This document shows, piece after piece, positions 4,842 to 26,001 of a stretch of DNA of 34,751 bases; within the stretch, counting starts at the first letter, position 1; the number at the start of each line of letters is the position of its first letter. The translations under genes were made by a program, and so were the position numbers. The notes under the pieces are model-generated. The model saw only the letters and a list, made by a program, of their open reading frames with translations. It ran no database searches and had not been told where the DNA came from. This DNA is from Caldisericia bacterium (GTDB lineage: Bacteria; Caldisericota; Caldisericia; JAAYUI01): contig JAGNLA010000015.1 in the NCBI GenBank assembly GCA_017999835.1, forward strand, positions 1-34,751, in the 5' to 3' direction.

Positions 4842-5324
4842 CTACTTAACGGTTATCGAATTGATCAGGTCAAACTCGTCTTTTGCGAAAATATCATCCA
4901 CTTCAACAATTATGCTCTTTCCATCTGATACTGTCACAAGGGTGGTTTTGTCAGACCCATCCGATTTTTTTGTCACAAACTGTTTGAAAATATTCTGCCC
5001 AAAAGCCACATCTTCAATAGTTGCTCCATTGGCGATGCCAGAGATGATGTCGTTTGCTGTCGACGTTTCATCGGTCTTGTAGGTTATCTTGACAATGTTT
5101 CCATTTGAGGTCTTTCTGTCAAAAACAACCGTAACACCGTCATCTGTAGCCTTCCATCCTTCTGGTAAGTCTGCTGTAAAAACCTTGTTTTCAAACATTC
5201 CGCTCTCCGTTGTTATTGTTTCTTGTGGTGTCGTGTCATTAACATTATCGCTGGTGTTGTTGCCGCATGCTGACATAGACAATAAACACACAAAAACAAC
5301 TACTATGGCAATAATTCTCTTCAT
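4842..5324 (-). CDS. Lipoprotein, copy 1 of a tandem paralogous family
   Basis: A 160-residue lipoprotein. It has a signal peptide with a lipobox (LLSMSAC, cysteine at about residue 20), then a short polar Thr/Asn-rich linker, then a domain of about 115 residues. The domain opens with F.AdLPEGWKAT and ends with a hydrophobic strand before the stop. The same layout (short f-x-f/aLP-x-x-W motif, alternating strands, VeDv.FG.n.fKk..., terminal I.vk) recurs in the next three genes, so these are paralogs. The fold resembles small PsbP-like or DUF1795-like substrate-binding domains, but this is inference from pattern only. The start is supported by AAGGAGG nine bases upstream. Confidence 0.8.
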   Translation of the reverse strand: MKRIIAIVVVFVCLLSMSACGNNTSDNVNDTTPQETITTESGMFENKVFTADLPEGWKATDDGVTVVFDRKTSNGNIVKITYKTDETSTANDIISGIANGATIEDVAFGQNIFKQFVTKKSDGSDKTTLVTVSDGKSIIVEVDDIFAKDEFDLINSITVK

Positions 5325-5394
5325 CCCAGGAGTCCTCCTTTTCTGTTGATCAGTCCTGTTTTACTTGTTTCTTTGAAAAACCTGAACAATGTCA

Positions 5395-5895
5395 TCACTT
5401 AATTTTCAATGTCTGGAGCATTGCTTGCTCTTCTTCACCTTCAAGGTTAGAAAGCTGAATGACCATGCCAATGGAATCCTTGGTTGTGACAAGGACGTAC
5501 ATGGACACTTCTTTTTTTGTTGTTGGGTCGGCATCGGTGCCAACTATCTTTTTAAATGTATAATCACCAAATTTGACTTCTGTAATCTCAGAAAGTTTCG
5601 CATTTGGGTTTTGCTGCTTTACCTGTTCAGAAATATTTTTTGCGATAGCATCAACGCTTTCGGTATTGTTGTCTGCGGCCATGATAACCATGCCTTCGGC
5701 ATCACTCTTTTTTATAATAACTGGACCATCTTTTTCCTCAGAACCTTCCCAATCTTTTGCCAGAGTGATCGTGAAAAGTCCGTGCTCGAAAGGCTTTCCC
5801 ATCTCAACAGATTTTTTTGTGTCATTGCCATCCCCGCACGAGGCAGTCATGGCAATTATGGTGACAAGTGATAGTATCGACATTAACTTCTTCAT
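5395..5895 (-). CDS. Lipoprotein, copy 2 of the family
   Basis: A 166-residue lipoprotein. The start is placed at 5895 (MKKLMSIL), not at an upstream in-frame start at 5961, because the upstream extension is not signal-like and would run through a probable promoter. The lipobox is MTASCGDG (Cys about residue 20). The mature domain has GLFTITLAKDWEGS, matching the F..tLP..W motif of its neighbours, and ISEVKFGDYTFKKI, matching VEDVAFG.N.FK in copy 1. The linker between lipid anchor and domain is the shortest of the four. The Shine-Dalgarno is weak (AGAAAGAGA). Confidence 0.8.
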   Translation of the reverse strand: MKKLMSILSLVTIIAMTASCGDGNDTKKSVEMGKPFEHGLFTITLAKDWEGSEEKDGPVIIKKSDAEGMVIMAADNNTESVDAIAKNISEQVKQQNPNAKLSEITEVKFGDYTFKKIVGTDADPTTKKEVSMYVLVTTKDSIGMVIQLSNLEGEEEQAMLQTLKIK

Positions 5896-5930
5896 TTGAT
5901 TTCTCTTTCTACAAAAAGGATATGCAAAAT

Positions 5931-5958
5931 TGTATAACCCGTTGGAGTAAATAGCAAA
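5931..5958 (-). promoter_or_regulatory. Probable promoter of lipoprotein copy 2
   Basis: Read on the minus strand: TTTGCT, 16 bp, TATACA. It lies about 35 bases upstream of the chosen start and abuts the terminator of the preceding gene. Confidence 0.4.
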
Positions 5959-5959
5959 C

Positions 5960-5990
5960 AAAAAAGCCGGAGAGTTCTCTCCGGCTTTTT
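5960..5990 (-). terminator. Terminator after lipoprotein copy 3
   Basis: A perfect inverted repeat, AAAAAGCCGGAGAG / CTCTCCGGCTTTTT, with a two-base central gap. It is symmetric, so it could act in both directions. It separates copy 3 from copy 2, which therefore are likely transcribed apart. Confidence 0.9.
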
Positions 5991-6007
5991 ATAAACAGAT
6001 GTATTTC

Positions 6008-6568
6008 TTACTTAAGAATGATTGAATTGAGGATTGCCTGTTCGTCTGTACCGGCAAAGTTCTGGACTGTGATGTTGAATGCTTTTGTGCCATTGACTGC
6101 AATGAGGTTTGTCACTTCATTGTCCTGAATTTTGGCTGTGATCTTCTTGAAGGTGTTTGCACCGATTGTTGCATCTTCGACTGTTCCCTGCATCTGCTTT
6201 GCTGTTTCTTCTGCAAGCTGTTCGAGTGGTGCTGGTGTATTCTCAAGAACCATAACCATAACCATTGACATCATGTCGCCTTCTTTTGCTACTGTGACGA
6301 TGCCGGCTTCTTCTGTTGCCTTCCAGCCTGTTGGGACTGCGAATGTGATGTTTGCATTGTCAAATGTGCCTTCGGCTGCTGGTGTTGTCGTGTCGGTTGT
6401 TGTATCCTCAGTGGTGGTTGTGTTGTCTGTGGTTGTGGTTTCTGTTGTTGTTTCTGTGGTGGTTGTATCGTTGGTTGTTGGTTCTTCTGTCTTTTCACCG
6501 CAAGCGACAAACATTGTCACTGCAACGCAGAGAACGAGCATCATTGCAAAAATTTTCTTCATGTTCAT
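6008..6568 (-). CDS. Lipoprotein with Thr-rich linker, copy 3 of the family
   Basis: A 186-residue lipoprotein. The signal peptide starts MNMKKIFAMMLVL and the lipobox is TMFVACGEK. It is followed by a linker of about 35 residues that is almost entirely Thr with Glu/Asp/Asn, then the shared domain starting ITFAVPTGWKATEE. The domain includes VEDATIGANTFKKI, close to copy 1. The start at 6568 is favoured by AAAGGAG ten bases upstream; an in-frame start at 6619 lacks support. The low-complexity linker would hold the domain away from the membrane and may vary in length between strains. Confidence 0.85.
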   Translation of the reverse strand: MNMKKIFAMMLVLCVAVTMFVACGEKTEEPTTNDTTTTETTTETTTTDNTTTTEDTTTDTTTPAAEGTFDNANITFAVPTGWKATEEAGIVTVAKEGDMMSMVMVMVLENTPAPLEQLAEETAKQMQGTVEDATIGANTFKKITAKIQDNEVTNLIAVNGTKAFNITVQNFAGTDEQAILNSIILK

Positions 6569-6631
6569 TATATATGAACTCCTTTCGGTTTGTTTTGCCG
6601 GAGCAACTTTAGCAATCATTTACTAACATTC

Positions 6632-6653
6632 AAGGATAAAATTATTATCCTTT
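6632..6653 (-). terminator. Weak hairpin after lipoprotein copy 4
   Basis: A 7-8 bp AT-rich stem, AAGGATA / TATCCTT, lies about 35 bases past the stop of copy 4 on the minus strand. The stem is weak and there is no good T run. Confidence 0.35.
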
Positions 6654-6689
6654 AACAATCCAAACAAACGTTGTTTGATACGTAGTTTA

Positions 6690-7352
6690 TCACTTGAATT
6701 GAATGTTTGAAAGCAATTCCTGGGTTGTCTGCTGGTCATAAATTGGGGTTGATAGATAGTAGGCTTTCGTTCCGACAACACAAATAAGGAAATCCCATAC
6801 AATGTCTTCTTGCGTGGTTGGATCTTTTTGCATGGTTTTGATTCGCTTATATGAATTGTTGCCAAACTTTACATCTTCCACGGTACCGTTAAATTGTGTT
6901 GCGACGCCTTCCGCTCTTACCTGTACGCTATCCTTGTTGTTCTCAACGGTCTGGACGGCTATGCCGGCATTTTGCTTGGAATCCAGGATAATTGTTGCAT
7001 ACCCCTGAGTTGGGTCTTCTTTTGCGACCCAGTTTTCCGGCAGTTTGCACTTGAAGTAATGCCCGTCAAACTCGCCTTCTGAGTAAAGTTTTTCTTCATC
7101 GTTATTGGTTGGGGCTTCTTCGGTTTTTGTTTCCGGACTTGTTTGTTCTTGTGTTTGAACGTTTTCTTCGGATTTTTGTTCTTCCTGCGGTTTCTGTTGA
7201 GTTTCTTCAGCTGGTTGTTCAGCTTGCTGCTGCTGGCTCTGGGTTGTGTCATTGTTCCCAACAGTTTCTGGCTTTGTTTCAGTTGATCCACAACCGGACA
7301 GAACCAGAACCAACATCATGGCCACCAGCATGGATATTGTCGTCTTCTTCAC
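6690..7352 (-). CDS. Lipoprotein with Gln/Glu-rich linker, copy 4 of the family
   Basis: A 220-residue lipoprotein and the longest of the four. The start codon is GTG with AGGAG seven bases upstream. The lipobox is LVLSGCGST (Cys about residue 21). The linker of roughly 65 residues is rich in Gln, Glu, Pro and Thr. The domain begins YFKCKLPENWVAKEDP and contains VEDVKFGNNSYKRI, a clear match to the other copies. The four linkers are unrelated in length and composition while the domain is conserved. Divergence of the domains suggests old duplications, not recent copies. Confidence 0.85.
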   Translation of the reverse strand: MKKTTISMLVAMMLVLVLSGCGSTETKPETVGNNDTTQSQQQQAEQPAEETQQKPQEEQKSEENVQTQEQTSPETKTEEAPTNNDEEKLYSEGEFDGHYFKCKLPENWVAKEDPTQGYATIILDSKQNAGIAVQTVENNKDSVQVRAEGVATQFNGTVEDVKFGNNSYKRIKTMQKDPTTQEDIVWDFLICVVGTKAYYLSTPIYDQQTTQELLSNIQFK

Positions 7353-13839: not shown

Positions 13840-15171
13840 TCAGACGTTGTCTGTTGACGTTGGGGGCTGGCTGTCGGTTTTTTCTGCCGGTGGGGTGTCA
13901 ATGCCGGTTGTGATCGCGATTTTAACAGGATTGGCCATTTCTGGTCTTTCAAACTTTGCGTTTGTTGTCACGATGTTTTCAAAATCCTGCTTTGGAATTG
14001 CTTGTGAATATTTTTTGATTTCGATGAAACCACCATTGCAAAGCTCGAGTTCGGCAACAATGTCTGATGAAGCTTTGTTTTTGGCTACTATAACCTTTTC
14101 GCCGTTGATGGTGTAAATGTCGCATTCAAGCGGGAAACCGAAATGGTCACGCAGCGATCCCATCGAACCCTTGATAAGGAGCAGGTCTGTCTTGCACTGG
14201 TCGCATCTGGTCGGTTCTGTCCAACCGTTTGCTTTGCACTTGAGCTGGGTGACAGACGAAATCTTGAATGGCTGGCCACAAAGCACGCACTTTTCAGTCT
14301 TGTCAGGGTGTTCGTCAATGCAGGCTTTGCAGTATTGGCTTGGGTTGTTCCAGTCGGTGTTTATCTTGAATGGGCTGCCGCAGATGGCGCACTTGGCTTC
14401 GACCCATTTTGCCTTATTTTTTTCATTACACTCGTTGCAAAGCTTCGGGATTTTCTCCCATTCAGTGTTGTATTTGAATTCTTTGCCGCATTCCTGGCAT
14501 GTGGTGGCAACCCACTTTTCATCGCGCTTTTCCTTGCATGCAGGGCAAAGTGACGGCGGTTTGACCCAGTCTTCGTGAACTTTGACGTCGCAGCCGCAGT
14601 CGGCGCACTGGATGACGTGCCACTTTTTGTCGCGCTTTTCCTTGCATGATGGGCATAGCGTTGGTGGCTTTTCCCAGTCGACATGAATTTTAATGTCGCA
14701 TCCACAATCCTGGCACTTTATGACGCGCCACTGTTCGTCCCTTTTCTGTTTACACGCAGGGCAAAGTGATGGTGGTTTGACCCAGTCCTCGTGAATTTTA
14801 ATGTCACATCCGCAGTCCTGGCACTTTGCAATGTGCCACTTCTCGTCGCTCTTTTGCTTGCAGTCCGGGCAGTATTGCGGTGGTTTTTCCCAGTCATCGT
14901 GGACTTTGATGTCGCAACCGCAACCTTTGCATTTTACAACTTTCCACTTTGAGTTCTTTTTCTCACGGCAATCCTTGCAGATTGTCGGTGGGTGGTCCCA
15001 GTCCTCGTGCACCTTGATGTCGCATCCGCAGATCTGACATTTGACAACGCTCCATTTTGCCTTCTTGCTCTCCTTGCAGTCCGGGCAAATGGTTGGCGGG
15101 TTTTCCCACTCTTCGTTGATAACAAATTCTTTGCCGCATTCTTCGCAGTTTTTCGTAATCCATTTCGTCAT
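13840..15171 (-). CDS. Protein with nine tandem 36-residue zinc ribbons
   Basis: A 443-residue cytoplasmic protein. Residues about 8-330 consist of nine consecutive C-x2-C ... C-x2-C units. The first seven have a strict 36-residue period with the consensus CxxCGCDIKVHEDWxKPPxLCPxCKxKRDxKWxVxK; the last two are looser. Each unit is a treble-clef or zinc-ribbon candidate related to the zf-trcl type. The C-terminal 110 residues are different: a compact alpha/beta part (DHFGFPLECDIYTINGEKVI, GGFIEIKKYSQ) and a disordered Pro/Thr/Ser tail. Tandem repeats at this regularity suggest binding of a repetitive ligand such as nucleic acid, but no function is known to me. GAGGT lies about ten bases before the ATG. 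Confidence 0.88.
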   Translation of the reverse strand: MTKWITKNCEECGKEFVINEEWENPPTICPDCKESKKAKWSVVKCQICGCDIKVHEDWDHPPTICKDCREKKNSKWKVVKCKGCGCDIKVHDDWEKPPQYCPDCKQKSDEKWHIAKCQDCGCDIKIHEDWVKPPSLCPACKQKRDEQWRVIKCQDCGCDIKIHVDWEKPPTLCPSCKEKRDKKWHVIQCADCGCDVKVHEDWVKPPSLCPACKEKRDEKWVATTCQECGKEFKYNTEWEKIPKLCNECNEKNKAKWVEAKCAICGSPFKINTDWNNPSQYCKACIDEHPDKTEKCVLCGQPFKISSVTQLKCKANGWTEPTRCDQCKTDLLLIKGSMGSLRDHFGFPLECDIYTINGEKVIVAKNKASSDIVAELELCNGGFIEIKKYSQAIPKQDFENIVTTNAKFERPEMANPVKIAITTGIDTPPAEKTDSQPPTSTDNV

Positions 15172-16973: not shown

Positions 16974-17984
16974 CTACCTCCCGGTTCGTTTTTTTAGCTC
17001 TTCGATGAGAGCTGGAAGCACCGCTTGCCATGAACCGACGATAGAGACAGTCGCAACCTTGAATATCGGTGCGTCTGGGTTTGAGTTGATGGCAATGATG
17101 ACGTTTGAGTTCTGCATTCCAACAAGGTGCTGGATGGCGCCTGAAATTCCGACTGCAAAATAGACTCTTGGGACAACGGTTTTGCCTGTTTGACCAACCT
17201 GTCGTGAAACATCAATGAAACCATTCTCAACCAACGGCCTTGAGCCACAAAGCTCGCCGCCGACAACCTTTGCCAATTCTTTTAGTTTTTCGATACCTGC
17301 AGGAGTGGCGCATCCCCTGCCACCTGCAACCAAAACCTTTGCGTGTTCGATTTCAATTTCATCTCTTGAAGCGTCTGAGATAAATTCGAGAATTTTGACG
17401 GTCAGGTCTTTTGGGTCTACCGGGATGGTTTCTTTTACGATTTTACCTGTTCTTGTTGGATCTGGGTCAGGTTTTGCCATGACTTTGGGTCTGACGGTTG
17501 ACATCTGTGGCTTGCCTTTTTGGCAAAATATTGTTGCCATGATGTTGCCGCCAAAGGTTGGACGGGTTGAAAGGAGTTTAGATGTTTTGTCGTCAATGTC
17601 CAAACCAGTGCAGTCAGCAGTTAAACCAGCCTTGAGGATGGTTGCCACTGCGCCGGAAAGGTCTCTGCCAAGAGGAGTTGCGCCGATGAGGACAATGTCT
17701 GGATGGTGTTTTTCTACAACTGCGACAACGGCTTTTGTGTAGGTTTTTGTAAGGTAATCCTTGTAGCCTGGGTCGTCAACGATGTAAACAGCGTCTGCGC
17801 CGTGAGCGATGCAGTCTTTGGCGTGTTTTTCCACGTCATGACCGACAATCAGGGCTGAGACGTTCTGATTGAGCTTTGTGGCAAGCTTTCTTGCTTCGCC
17901 AAGCAGCTCATAGCCGACTTTCTGGAGCTTTCCATCGGAGACTTCAATGAACACAAGTACGTCTTTCCATTCTGTGTCGCTCAT
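16974..17984 (-). CDS. fixB: Electron transfer flavoprotein alpha subunit FixB
   Basis: A 336-residue EtfA-type protein. The N-terminal half is the Rossmann-like ETF domain. The C-terminal FAD domain has [48 protein letters not shown] and [15 protein letters not shown]. The last replaces the common Y-G-I-V-G-D element, a mild oddity. It overlaps fixA by four bases. No N-terminal ferredoxin extension is present, in contrast with some anaerobe EtfA proteins. Confidence 0.95.
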
Positions 17985-21476: not shown

Positions 21477-23552
21477 CTATCTTCTTTTCATCTTCATCGA
21501 AGCTTCAGCCAGCTTGTTTTTTATCGATCTGGCTTTGCTTGTACGTTTAGATTCTGTTGGATTATAATCCTGGCCTTTGCCTTTGGTTATCAGTTCACCT
21601 TTTAGGATGGCTATTTTGTCACGGATTTTTGCTGCCTGTTCAAATTCAAGCATGGCAGCAGCAAGGTTCATCTCATCTGTTAGCTGCTGGATAAGAGCTT
21701 TCAAATCCCTGTCGGTCATGCCAGGTGTGATCTCTGGTAGCTTGGTTTCCTTGCCTGAAGTAAAGCTGAGCATGTCTTTGATTGCTTTTCTGATGGTTTC
21801 AGGCTTTATTCCGTGCTCAACGTTGTAGGTTTCCTGGGTCTGGCGTCTTCGGTTTGTCTCGCTGATGGCGTTTTGCATTGACTGGGTGAGTGTGTCGGCG
21901 TACATGATGACCTTTCCTGAGACGTTTCTTGCTGCACGGCCAATGGTTTGGACAAGCGAAGTTGTTGAACGCAGGAATCCTTCCTTGTCAGCATCCATGA
22001 TGGCAATCAGCGAAACCTCTGGCAAATCCAGTCCTTCTCGGAGCAAGTTGACGCCAACAATCACGTCGAACACGCCTTCACGGAGTTTTTTGAGGATGTT
22101 GACGCGCTCGATTGTGTCGATGCCTGAGTGGATGTAGTAAACCTTGTAGCCGGCTCCCAGCAGGAAATCGCTGAGGTTTTCAGCCATTTTCTTGGTCAAA
22201 ACTGTAACAAGGGTTCTCTCTCCCTTTTCAATGCGTGCTGTGATCTCCTTTTTAAGGTCATCAATCTGTCCTGTGATTGGTCTGACCTCGATTTCAGGGT
22301 CAAGCAAGCCTGTTGGTCTGATAAGCTGTTCCACAACCTGATCGGAAGCTTCCAGCTCCCAATCGGAAGGAGTGGCCGAAACGAAAATGGTTTGACCCAT
22401 GAACTGCTGGAATTCGTCCCAGTTTAGGGGTCTGTTTTCCAGGGCCGACGGCAGCCTGAAGCCGTAATCGACCAGCACCTGTTTTCTTGAGCGGTCGCCG
22501 GCAAACATGCCGCGAATCTGTGGAACGGTGATGTGACTTTCGTCGATGATCAGAAGATAATCCTCAGGAAGGAAGTTCATCAGTGTGTATGGAGTCATGC
22601 CAAAATCGCGGCCGGACAGCCACATGCTGTAGTTTTCGATGCCATTGCAATAACCAATCTCGCGGAGCATCTCCATGTCGTATTTTGTTCGCTCTTCAAG
22701 ACGCTGCGCCTCCAGGAGCTTTCCGTTGGCTTTGAAGTAATCAAGTCTTTCGTCAAGTTCCTTCATGATGTGAGGAATGTATTGCCCAATTTTTTCCTGT
22801 GTGGTGACAAATGCTTTTGCCGGGAAAAACATGAACCCGTCGAGCTCCTGGGTGGTTTGTCCGGTCACAGGGTCAAGCTTTGAAATCTTCATCACTTCGT
22901 CAAATTCAAACTCTATCCTTACTGCGTCCTCGGTTTCCGGTGGCCATACGTCGACAGTCGATCCGGAAACCCTAATCGATGAAGGTTCGAAAGCGATGTT
23001 GTTTCTCATGTACTGCATGCCAACCAGTCCACGGATCATGTCGTCGCGAAGCATTCGTTGACCACGCTTTACTGTGACAAGTTGTTCCTTGTACCCTTCA
23101 GGTGATTCCCAGCCGTAGATGCACGAAACCGAGGCGACAACAATCACATCGCGCCGTTCGAGCAGCGACCTAACCGTTGCGTGGCGAAGCCTCTGGATGT
23201 CTTCGTTGATGTCGGTTTCTTTGGCTATGTAGGTGTCAGATTTTGGCACGTAGGCTTCCGGCTGGTAGTAATCGTAGTAGCTGACGAAGTATTCCACGGC
23301 GTTGTCAGGGAAGAACTCGGACAACTCAGAGTAAAGCTGGGCAGCAAGGGTTTTGTTGTGAGCAAGCACCAGCACTGGCCGGTTCACCTTCTCGATGACC
23401 TTTGCCATGGTATAGGTTTTTCCAGAGCCGGTGACGCCAAGGAGGGTCTGATGGTGCATTCCAAGGTTTATACCTTCAGCGATTTTTTCAATAGCCTGGG
23501 GCTGGTCACCGGATGGTTCAAATTCTGATACGACTCTAAACGGATTGTCCAT
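21477..23552 (-). CDS. uvrB: Excinuclease ABC subunit B
   Basis: A 691-residue nucleotide-excision-repair helicase-like subunit that verifies damage with UvrA and recruits UvrC. Walker A GVTGSGKT (39-46), the damage-clamping beta-hairpin region YYDYYQPEAYVP, Walker B LLIIDESH, helicase motifs TIFVSATPSDWE, GVNLLREGLDLPEVSLIAI and QTIGRAARN, and a C-terminal UVR domain (LAAAMLEFEQAAKIRDKIAIL). The length is as expected. The ATG at 23552 is preceded by a promoter seven bases away and no Shine-Dalgarno. A second, truncated copy of its first 30 codons and -10 box lies at 24533-24636. Confidence 0.97.
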   Translation of the reverse strand: MDNPFRVVSEFEPSGDQPQAIEKIAEGINLGMHHQTLLGVTGSGKTYTMAKVIEKVNRPVLVLAHNKTLAAQLYSELSEFFPDNAVEYFVSYYDYYQPEAYVPKSDTYIAKETDINEDIQRLRHATVRSLLERRDVIVVASVSCIYGWESPEGYKEQLVTVKRGQRMLRDDMIRGLVGMQYMRNNIAFEPSSIRVSGSTVDVWPPETEDAVRIEFEFDEVMKISKLDPVTGQTTQELDGFMFFPAKAFVTTQEKIGQYIPHIMKELDERLDYFKANGKLLEAQRLEERTKYDMEMLREIGYCNGIENYSMWLSGRDFGMTPYTLMNFLPEDYLLIIDESHITVPQIRGMFAGDRSRKQVLVDYGFRLPSALENRPLNWDEFQQFMGQTIFVSATPSDWELEASDQVVEQLIRPTGLLDPEIEVRPITGQIDDLKKEITARIEKGERTLVTVLTKKMAENLSDFLLGAGYKVYYIHSGIDTIERVNILKKLREGVFDVIVGVNLLREGLDLPEVSLIAIMDADKEGFLRSTTSLVQTIGRAARNVSGKVIMYADTLTQSMQNAISETNRRRQTQETYNVEHGIKPETIRKAIKDMLSFTSGKETKLPEITPGMTDRDLKALIQQLTDEMNLAAAMLEFEQAAKIRDKIAILKGELITKGKGQDYNPTESKRTSKARSIKNKLAEASMKMKRR

Positions 23553-23566
23553 GAGGGAGATTCTAT
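23463..23566. repeat. Copy A of a 104-bp direct repeat (native uvrB 5' end)
   Basis: Comprises uvrB codons 1-30, the seven bases before the ATG and the -10 box. It matches 24533-24636 in the same orientation, 1070 bp away, with eight differences in 104 bp. Four differences are in the seven-base leader and four are third-position synonymous changes in codons 7, 9, 27 and 28 of uvrB. Confidence 0.92.
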
Positions 23567-23588
23567 AATTTGCCTATGAATACTTCAA
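23560..23588 (-). promoter_or_regulatory. uvrB promoter, leaderless arrangement
   Basis: Minus strand: TTGAAG (23583-23588), 17 bp, TAGAAT (23560-23565), seven bases to the ATG. The duplicated copy keeps TAGAAT and the seven-base distance although the seven bases themselves differ (CTCCCTC against CGTTTTC). Confidence 0.65.
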
Positions 23589-23771
23589 CAAATATTCTAA
23601 ATTTATATAATCACAATTTGGTAGGTGCATTTTTGTTATTGATGTAAGACTTATTAAGTAATAATAAAGTTTGATACAATGTTTCAAATTCTTATCATGA
23701 CATGAATTGTTTTATAATACTGACATTTCTTGTCTATTGACAGTCCGTTAAAATAGTTCATGGAGGCTTGC

Positions 23772-24662
23772 ATGAAATTGATTCCTGAGCGAGTTGTAAT
23801 AATAATCTTGACGATACTTCTAGTAATATCGAATGTCTATGCTGTTTCTGTAGGTCAGAAACAAATCATATTGACTCTTGGTAACAACGTAGCATTTATC
23901 GATGGCAAACCAACTACTTTAGAAGCTGCACCAGCAACGATTAAGGGTAGAACAATGGTTCCTTTGAGATTTATCGGTGAAGCGTTTGGTGCAAAAGTTG
24001 ATTGGGATAATGCAACAAAAAGTGCGACATTAACCCTTACAGACAAAGAATGTCCTCCATGTGCAGAATGCCCAAAACCACCGATACATAACAAAGCTAG
24101 TATAGGTGTTGAGGGAAAAGAATCGTCTAGCAATGTTAAGAGCACATTGTTTCGTATAGAAAGTGGCATTGTACGCATTACCGGTTGGTATTGGATAGAT
24201 TTTTCTGAATCAGATGTTTTATATCGAGCATCGGTAATTGTGAGATTGTACAAAGAAGACGGGACTTTAATTAAAACATTCGAGGCTATAGGCGCACCAG
24301 AAAGAGCAGAGTATAATGAATGTAAGAAAACAGTTAAGTATTGCCTATCTTTGAATAGTAGTACAAAGATAGAAGCTATAGAAATAGGTAATTATTACAT
24401 AGAAGTTGACGCATCTGTAGATAGACCAAACAAAGAATTCTGGAGCGTTTCTGTATCTGAACAAAAAAGGACTGATTTGGTAAAGACGGGAGATTTTGAT
24501 GTTTACGCCAAGGAAAGCCTAATGATACATCTAAGGTTGATGCCTTCAGCGATTTTTTCAATAGCCTGGGGCTGGTCACCGGATGGTTCAAATTCAGATA
24601 CAACTCTAAACGGATTGTCCATGAAAACGATTCTATTGCAATTTCAGGTTACATCAAGCTAG
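23772..24662 (+). CDS. Secreted stalk-domain protein with a 3' end made of antisense uvrB sequence
   Basis: A 296-residue exported protein. The signal peptide ([18 protein letters not shown]) is followed by one stalk domain at about 25-98 ([39 protein letters not shown]) and a Cys-rich turn [12 protein letters not shown] predicted beta-sandwich domain follows ([37 protein letters not shown]). The last about 43 residues, from residue 254 on ([15 protein letters not shown]), are read from the uvrB-derived repeat on its antisense strand, so the original C-terminus has been lost or replaced. GGAGG precedes the ATG at 23772 by five bases; the in-frame ATG at 23760 overlaps this site. Composition is more AT-rich than the other stalk genes. 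Whether the chimera is functional is unknown. Confidence 0.75.
24503..24622 (-). pseudogene. Truncated uvrB 5' fragment
   Basis: On the minus strand, ATG 24622 opens a frame with the same first 30 residues as UvrB ([20 protein letters not shown] and on to INL), then nine unrelated residues and a stop at 24503-24505. TAGAAT lies seven bases upstream and a TTGATG 16 bp further, so the relic still carries a promoter-like sequence that would fire antisense into the stalk gene. Confidence 0.85.
24533..24636. repeat. Copy B of the 104-bp direct repeat (uvrB-derived)
   Basis: Second copy of the uvrB 5' segment, in the same orientation as copy A and 1070 bp from it. The match ends abruptly at uvrB codon 30 on one side and just after the -10 box on the other. 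It forms the 3' coding end of the stalk gene that starts at 23772. Confidence 0.92.
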
Positions 24663-24784
24663 GACAGGGTTCAACTTTGTGCGAAATTTTCAAAATACCC
24701 TTGTAGATTTTTTTGATCGTTTGGGGTTACGAGAAGTGCTTACGAGGTTATTGCAAATTTAATGCAATTGCAATTGCCAACCCA

Positions 24785-24813
24785 TTGACCTGAACCCAAA
24801 GACCAGGTATACG
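24785..24813 (+). promoter_or_regulatory. Promoter of the CAP/stalk gene
   Basis: TTGACC (24785-24790), 17 bp, TATACG (24808-24813), followed by TAGGAGG and the ATG at 24835. The leader would be about 15 bases. Confidence 0.6.
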
Positions 24814-24834
24814 TTATCTTACCTAGGAGGCGTT

Positions 24835-26001
24835 ATGAAAAAACTAGTGTTGGCAGTTGCGGCAATATGCCTGGTGTCTATGGTACCGGCCATCAGGGCG
24901 TTGGATGTTGCACCAGCAAGACCGCAGGCAGCTATACTCGATATATTTGATTACATCAACAATTTCAGGGTAGAAAACGGTCTTCCAAAACTCATCTGGA
25001 ATGACGATATCGCAGACATTACAGAAGAACATTCCAGAAAAATGCACGACTCGTCTGAACTCAATCATTTTATCCAGGGGAAGGGGCCTGAAGACAGACT
25101 CAACGACGCTGGCATAAAGTGGTCATGCTACGTTGAAAATGTTGCCTACAATAAAGGTCAGTCAGACAAGGCAAAGGCAGCTTTCGAGTCCTGGAAGAAA
25201 TCCGACGGGCACAGAAAAAACATGCTTGACTCATGCGTAACCGAAGGCGCAATTGGCTACACGGGATGCGAAGTGATGGGTCACTACTTCACTTTCATGG
25301 CTTTCAAACCGGCAAGCGAATATGTTGTCAGGCAGGAGCCGTTCAAGGTGGCCATTAAGGTTGGCAGTGTTGTTACGGCAAAGGTTTCAATCAAGAATCC
25401 TGGCGATAGTGCCATGACAATCAAAGCCGAAGTCACGTTAAAACCTTCGGGAGTAAGGTTTGGCGTTGGGCCTGCAGAAGCATCAATTGAACCAGGCAAG
25501 GCCGCGGATTTCTCAGTGACAATCGGCGCTGAAACCTCCAAAGCCGGACAATATAATGGAGAAATAACCTTTGCTTATAACGGAGGTAAGCTGATTCACC
25601 CGTTTGAGATAAACGTGGAGGAACAGAAAGAATCTACGGCAATCCTTTGGATTGGCAAAAATGAATATTATGTAAATGATGTGAAGAAAACAACTTCATC
25701 ACCTCCGATGATCTACAAGAACTCAACGGTTGTTGGTCTGAGAATGATTTCCGACATTTTCGGCGCAAAGGTTGACTATTATGCACCAACCAAAACCATC
25801 ACAATAAATCATAAAGGGATTATCATGATAGTTCAGGTCGGCAACTCCACAGCTACAATAAATGGTGTCAAAGTGACAGTGAAGCCAGAACCGATGATTA
25901 TCAAAGGCAGCACCTATGTGCCATTCAGGTTTATCGTTGAAAACCTTGGCGGAAGAGTAAATTTCAACGCAACAGAGAAGAAAATAACAATAATTTTCTA
26001 A
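24835..26001 (+). CDS. Secreted CAP (SCP/YkwD-like) domain protein with stalk repeats
   Basis: A 388-residue exported protein. A signal peptide of about 22 residues (MKKLVLAVAAICLVSM) precedes a CAP domain at about 36-165. Its motifs are DYINNFRVENGLPKLIWND, EEHSRKMHD, ENVAYNKG (usual G-E-N-[IL]) and SDGHRKNMLD (usual S-x-G-H-R-x-N-[IM]-L). Two histidines of the CAP cavity (EEHS and GHR) are kept. An Ig-like domain at about 170-270 (VTAKVSIKNPGDSAMTIKAE) is followed by two stalk repeats to the end (MIYKNSTVVGLRMISDIFGA; MIIKGSTYVPFRFIVENLGG). It has a strong Shine-Dalgarno and its own terminator. Bacterial CAP proteins are secreted and of mostly unknown function. Confidence 0.9.
   Translation: MKKLVLAVAAICLVSMVPAIRALDVAPARPQAAILDIFDYINNFRVENGLPKLIWNDDIADITEEHSRKMHDSSELNHFIQGKGPEDRLNDAGIKWSCYVENVAYNKGQSDKAKAAFESWKKSDGHRKNMLDSCVTEGAIGYTGCEVMGHYFTFMAFKPASEYVVRQEPFKVAIKVGSVVTAKVSIKNPGDSAMTIKAEVTLKPSGVRFGVGPAEASIEPGKAADFSVTIGAETSKAGQYNGEITFAYNGGKLIHPFEINVEEQKESTAILWIGKNEYYVNDVKKTTSSPPMIYKNSTVVGLRMISDIFGAKVDYYAPTKTITINHKGIIMIVQVGNSTATINGVKVTVKPEPMIIKGSTYVPFRFIVENLGGRVNFNATEKKITIIF

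Follow-up and report, generated by a model that had tools for sequence, protein, structure and literature searches.

In a contig of a Caldisericia bacterium, analysed over a stretch of 34,751 nucleotides (the window), the 5' end of the repair gene uvrB is present twice, once in the intact gene and once as a cut-off stump, with a gene for a stalk-domain protein lying between the two copies. We consider it probable that this scar was made by one-sided homologous recombination with DNA of a related strain, either as homology-facilitated illegitimate recombination or as a single crossover. The observations behind this reading are the repeat itself, the decay of the stump (copy B), a nearest relative in which the site is empty, the insert's foreign composition, and similar scars at uvrA of the same genome and in an unrelated MAG; from them we infer a donor, a direction of transfer, a one-sided mechanism and an uptake route for the uvrB event.

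Two copies of the uvrB 5' end

The locus comprises the following features.

21477-23552, minus strand: uvrB, complete, an open reading frame of 691 aa, with 74% identity along its length to the UvrB proteins of two relatives, G001 and G002
23434-23566, minus strand: copy A, uvrB codons 1-40 and the region up to a -10-like box, delimited by alignment to 24505-24636
23560-23588, minus strand: promoter-like site of the intact uvrB (TTGAAG-17-TAGAAT), from a consensus scan only
23567-23759, no strand: AT-rich intergenic DNA, 24% GC, which would have come with the insert
23760-24662, plus strand: inserted stalk-domain open reading frame, 300 aa, with a Pfam match to Cu_amine_oxidN1 at residues 29-89 and an orphan C-terminal part
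24505-24636, minus strand: copy B, the cut-off uvrB 5' stump, with four silent changes in codons 1-30, from alignment and codon comparison
24630-24657, minus strand: promoter-like site left at the stump (TTGATG-16-TAGAAT), from a consensus scan only
24637-24834, no strand: old intergenic region of uvrB and the CAP gene, probably resident DNA, judged by its position between the stump and the CAP gene and by the neighbour order in G001
24835-26001, plus strand: CAP-domain gene with stalk domains (Pfam CAP and Cu_amine_oxidN1), 388 aa, the gene that formerly adjoined uvrB in divergent orientation; a CAP-type gene occupies the same place in G001 and G002

Pairwise alignment of 23463-23566 with 24533-24636 reproduced the 104-bp repeat with eight differences that an earlier note on this DNA had described, and with a BLAST E value of about 1e-38 the repeat is not due to chance. 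Four of the differences lie in uvrB codons 7, 9, 27 and 28 and all four are third-position synonymous, again as that note had it; the other four form a consecutive run just upstream of the uvrB start codon. Beyond these limits about 26-29 further bases are homologous, up to uvrB codon 40 and with an indel of 1 nt (23434-23462 / 24505-24532), and the full repeat, 23434-23566 / 24505-24636, measures 133 bp at 88% identity with the indel. Chance similarity was considered for this extension of 26 nt and is unlikely, since all seven substitutions in it are transitions and a run of 10 bases is identical. The further claim, that the coding differences are synonymous only, is true of codons 1-30 but not of codons 31-40, where copy B has a frameshift, a change of CAG to TAG and several amino-acid-changing differences, which mark it as a dead, truncated stump.

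The density of changes also differs between the two parts, with four in 90 nt for codons 1-30 versus eight in 32 nt (indel included) for codons 31-40 (Fisher p = 0.002). Simple decay after one event leaves the higher density in codons 31-40 unexplained, and gene conversion across codons 1-30 is one candidate cause of the contrast. At its upstream limit the match stops just past a -10-like box common to both copies (GATTCTAT), beyond which copies A and B each have their own -35-like hexamer; these promoter assignments come from a consensus scan only, in which the number of sites was no higher than in shuffled sequences.

The insert and the ancestral gene order

In G001, the nearest relative and a member of the same family, uvrB and a CAP-domain gene are directly adjacent and divergent, and the order past the CAP gene equals that of the window: a TPR gene, a gene for a small protein, and two genes that we take, from reading their sequences, to be rsmI-like and sbcD-like. 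Because copy B adjoins the CAP gene, the divergent neighbour of uvrB in G001, it marks the ancestral position of the uvrB 5' end, and the DNA from 23567 to about 24504, some 0.94 kb between the repeat copies, is therefore the newcomer. The CAP proteins of the window and of the relative are only 23% identical, so that their orthology rests largely on position, and the empty uvrB site is seen at the family level only (G001), the closest UvrB among the relatives having about 74% protein identity. A locus without the insertion, such as the earlier note had proposed to look for, is present in G001; G002 has the window's gene order with a different gene (a weak nitroreductase match) between uvrB and CAP. 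No uvrB stump was found in that gap of G002 (L030:6718-7902), and since it holds a different gene, the uvrB/CAP gap seems to be tolerant of insertions.

The position of copy B also bears on the direction of transfer. The earlier note had suggested that copy B came from a uvrB that stayed functional in another lineage and was imported, perhaps together with the stalk gene. That two alleles recombined is supported by the silent differences (four of four) and by recurrence at uvrA and in a Clostridia genome, but the direction is probably the reverse, because copy B lies next to the CAP gene, in the place that the uvrB 5' end holds in relatives. Copy B probably represents the resident stump, with the stalk gene and the 5' part of the intact uvrB (copy A) as the imported portion, the latter belonging to the imported allele. 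Polarising the silent A/B sites with G001 was tried and was uninformative at about 70% DNA identity; in a UvrB search of the genome contigs the best named match, a Caldisericota MAG at 60%, was too distant to place copies A and B.

As for composition, a GC content as low as the 24% of 23567-23759 occurs in only 0.4% of the genome's 193-nt windows, and this stretch showed no similarity to 24637-24834 on alignment. The GC3 of the stalk-domain open reading frame is 0.27, below that of 99.4% of the genome's open reading frames of at least 300 aa. Its tail consists of the uvrB stump read in antisense and of old intergenic DNA, so that the stalk protein is probably without its native end. For the C-terminal part (residues 107-260) no relatives were found in 119 genomes, the genome contigs, the viral contigs, the plasmids or Pfam, and for this reason no donor is named; neither these searches nor that with UvrB gave a donor sequence. 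The open reading frames of the insert include no transposase, integrase or other recombinase, Cu_amine_oxidN1 being their sole Pfam match.

Similar scars elsewhere

A search for direct repeats around inserts, which covered 1.58 of the 1.89 Mb (84%) of the genome, gave a second clear scar. Over 93 bp, the uvrA 3' end at L190:14675-14767 is repeated 2.6 kb away (17296-17388); the match stops at the uvrA stop codon, three of the four differences are silent, and an AT-rich gene for an 806-aa PQQ_2 protein lies between the copies. The empty site is seen in four of four family members, where a relative (26-27% identity) of the gene beyond the stump directly follows uvrA. Tandem duplication of the gene end with its neighbour was ruled out here, the two neighbours being only 27% alike over 120 residues. 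Two weaker scars were found: L116 has one of 71 bp, made up mostly of upstream DNA, at the 5' end of a methyltransferase gene, and L201 has one of 63 bp near the 3' end of an MFS gene, its single difference being silent. The insert ends at uvrB have nothing in common with those at the other scars of the genome.

As controls we used 80 uvrB-anchored loci from other genomes. One of them, L041 from a Clostridia MAG, combines a cut-off uvrB stump, about 85 codons long, with an intact uvrB whose start differs, and its insert of 32% GC carries an LRR gene; none of the 14 differences ahead of the stop in the stump changes an amino acid. This is an independent case, and it also concerns uvrB because the control loci were chosen by uvrB. 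In this insert, which lies upstream of the intact uvrB (L041:1750-2780), the LRR gene stands between two direct copies of a sequence of about 26 bp (AAATTTGTGACCTAAATTCGTGTAAT).

In the first 800 kb of G019, a class-level relative with a single-contig genome, no clear gene-end scar was found, and the repeats examined surround IS-type genes or a short-repeat array, so that a finished genome of the phylum does not yet confirm the scar pattern. At L238:6699-9001, L250:3951-6294 and L257:14670-16723, G019 carries the same 556-aa DDE transposase gene between identical direct repeats, which measure 182, 202 and 57 bp, an arrangement known from IS1634-type elements with long target duplications.

Other repeated arrangements were also observed. 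Two tRNA-Pro genes in L123 were rejected as a scar, being ordinary paralogues; beside tRNA-Pro(CGG) are what appear to be partial, degenerate tandem copies of the tRNA 3' part (L123:17640-17892). Behind an RHS-repeat gene at L122:2972-10983 come incomplete copies of its core (86-93% identity) that are joined to other tails and interspersed with other genes; these are displaced RHS tips, and a similar one-sided recombination may have added them. Tandem genes with a near-constant, zinc-ribbon-like N-terminal part (about 70-90 aa, 88-99% DNA identity) and differing C-terminal parts are found at L112:440-4994, L120:9888-13715 and L201:13329-16646 and look like a constant-head, variable-tail family; a gene that, from its sequence, we take to be TetR-like lies ahead of the pairs in L120 and L201 and beside the pair in L112. 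Within the window, four adjacent minus-strand genes (4842-7352) encode small proteins resembling paralogous lipoproteins, and 13840-15171 encodes a 443-aa protein of repeated CxxC-type segments, with a 203-bp internal repeat of 63% identity.

Silent differences between the copies

Under neutral decay, the probability of finding four of four differences synonymous in uvrB codons 1-30 is 0.002-0.005, the silent signal at the window's own uvrB consisting of these four differences only. Over all 40 codons of the copy the signal is weaker, with six of 11 differences silent (p = 0.015-0.042). Pooling uvrB codons 1-30, uvrA, L041 and L201 gives 22 silent differences in 24, whereas 21-29% would be expected from neutral decay (p < 1e-9, a value that assumes independent changes, was computed post hoc once the cases had been seen and excludes the decayed codons 31-40). 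In the three best cases the copies diverge at about 4-6% of sites, a far smaller distance than that to G001. The silent excess at uvrB codons 1-30, uvrA and L041 is indirect evidence that copies A and B derive from two different uvrB alleles, and the silent A/B differences would therefore gauge the distance between the donor and recipient alleles.

Origin of the scar

Taking these observations together, we propose that a fragment from a closely related strain, with the 5' part of uvrB and the divergent stalk-domain gene, entered the cell and may have integrated by homologous recombination at its uvrB end only, while the other end would have joined illegitimately within the resident uvrB near codon 40 (joint at about 24505). 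The joining could have been direct, as homology-facilitated illegitimate recombination, or could have gone through circularisation and a single crossover. The predicted product is a full uvrB whose 5' end and promoter are imported, followed by the stalk gene and by the resident uvrB 5' stump beside the CAP gene. The silent differences would have accumulated earlier, with both uvrB alleles functional in separate lineages, and the frameshift and stop of the stump would have come later, in a useless copy. Homologues of comEC and dprA are present in the genome; these genes permit DNA uptake, but they are found in many bacteria and are no proof of competence.

Repeats alone cannot tell a copy made at the insertion from a copy brought in. 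Differences between stump and intact gene that are silent only do separate the two origins, as only an imported allele has them from the start. On this ground we think it unlikely that the event was local, that is, a target duplication of about 130 bp at the insertion (of the IS1634 type, or by fill-in of a staggered break) whose identical copies then diverged. Duplication on site is hard to reconcile with the silent bias, because the copies would start identical and one of them is a dead stump. Events of this kind typically leave long direct repeats on both sides of the insert, the transposase gene of G019 is flanked in this way, and codons 31-40 of copy B resemble plain decay; against this, the insert has no transposase Pfam match, there are no common insert ends, and the G019 transposase was unmatched in the 84% of the genome searched.

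An assembly artefact, in which two strains of the community, with and without the stalk gene, were merged into one contig and the stump stems from the other strain, seems to us improbable. The join falls within an open reading frame, the repeats are inexact, unlike a graph overlap, the frameshift and stop of the stump are unlike the uvrB of a living strain, and the same genome has a similar scar at uvrA. Such a join would nevertheless show strain-level silent differences beside a variable gene, and the assembly is a draft of 28 contigs; L041 comes from a MAG.

Very little probability attaches to a small integrative element with an att site in the gene end, which would have supplied a new uvrB 5' end with its integrase acting in trans or since lost. 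Silent differences, a restored frame and a new promoter would all follow from such a site, and a like picture is seen at the uvrA 3' end and in the independent uvrB case of L041, but the insert is without a recombinase, the targets vary (uvrB 5', uvrA 3', methyltransferase 5' and MFS near 3') and the insert ends share nothing. Full duplication of uvrB, with divergence under selection, loss of all but the 5' end of one copy and insertion of the stalk gene, would also yield silent differences between copies but needs several independent steps, repeated at uvrA, and as no second full-length uvrB was seen among the relatives examined, we give it hardly any credence.

One-sided recombination with DNA of a related strain is thus the reading that we retain for the uvrB scar. 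Tentatively, it may also be a recurrent route, by which the lineage gains fast-changing genes beside core genes through one-sided recombination with sister strains; the mostly silent differences of each truncated gene end would then record the divergence of the donor, so that scars could be dated and counted from single genomes. If the pattern holds across large genome sets, single genomes would reveal, with no need of the donor, which genes entered by one-sided recombination and how distant the donors were.

Comparison with known systems

SXT at prfC is an integrative element that brings its own gene end; the uvrB locus differs from it in that no site-specific recombinase is found among the insert's open reading frames. 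The insertions of IS1549 and IS1634, which make direct repeats of 8-514 bp (PMC2266710), resemble the scar in having direct repeats of tens to hundreds of bases and an insert of kilobase size. They differ from it in that no DDE transposase or terminal inverted repeat was seen in the insert, and in that the repeats here are not identical (88%, with an indel), for which age may partly account.

In its layout the locus resembles insertion with long target duplication, a type recognised in genomes of Helicobacter pylori (Nobusato et al. 2000, cited with an illustration in PMC1643837). Here too long direct target repeats (133 bp, 88%) flank an insert of about 0.94 kb, and no transposase or integrase is present as a cause, the insert's open reading frame showing only Cu_amine_oxidN1. 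The type further has a relative in which the site is empty and the target single-copy; for uvrB such a site is seen at the family level only, in G001, and G002 has another gene there. The cargo is a stalk-domain gene in place of the restriction-modification gene of H. pylori, and most differences between the uvrB repeats, unlike those of that type, are silent. Type VI secretion loci with displaced immunity-gene arrays (PMC5361080) share with the locus a new gene beside a conserved anchor, an old neighbour that was pushed out and remnants between them; at uvrB, in contrast, the anchor is a core repair gene, the cargo is a stalk-domain protein and the site has a single insertion.

Homology-facilitated illegitimate recombination (de Vries and Wackernagel 2002; Prudhomme et al. 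2002), as it is discussed in PMC2884548 and PMC3240628, predicts what the window appears to contain, namely an intact gene with an imported end, an insert and a resident stump. Three naturally competent species are known to carry out the process, and E. coli does so at low frequency; circularisation with a single crossover also occurs in E. coli (PMC3240628, PMC2884548, PMC5361080). Its hallmark, one homologous and one illegitimate end, is deduced for the window from sequence alone. The uvrB scar is thus of a kind of event that is already known, and the silent divergence of its copies provides a useful signature of it.
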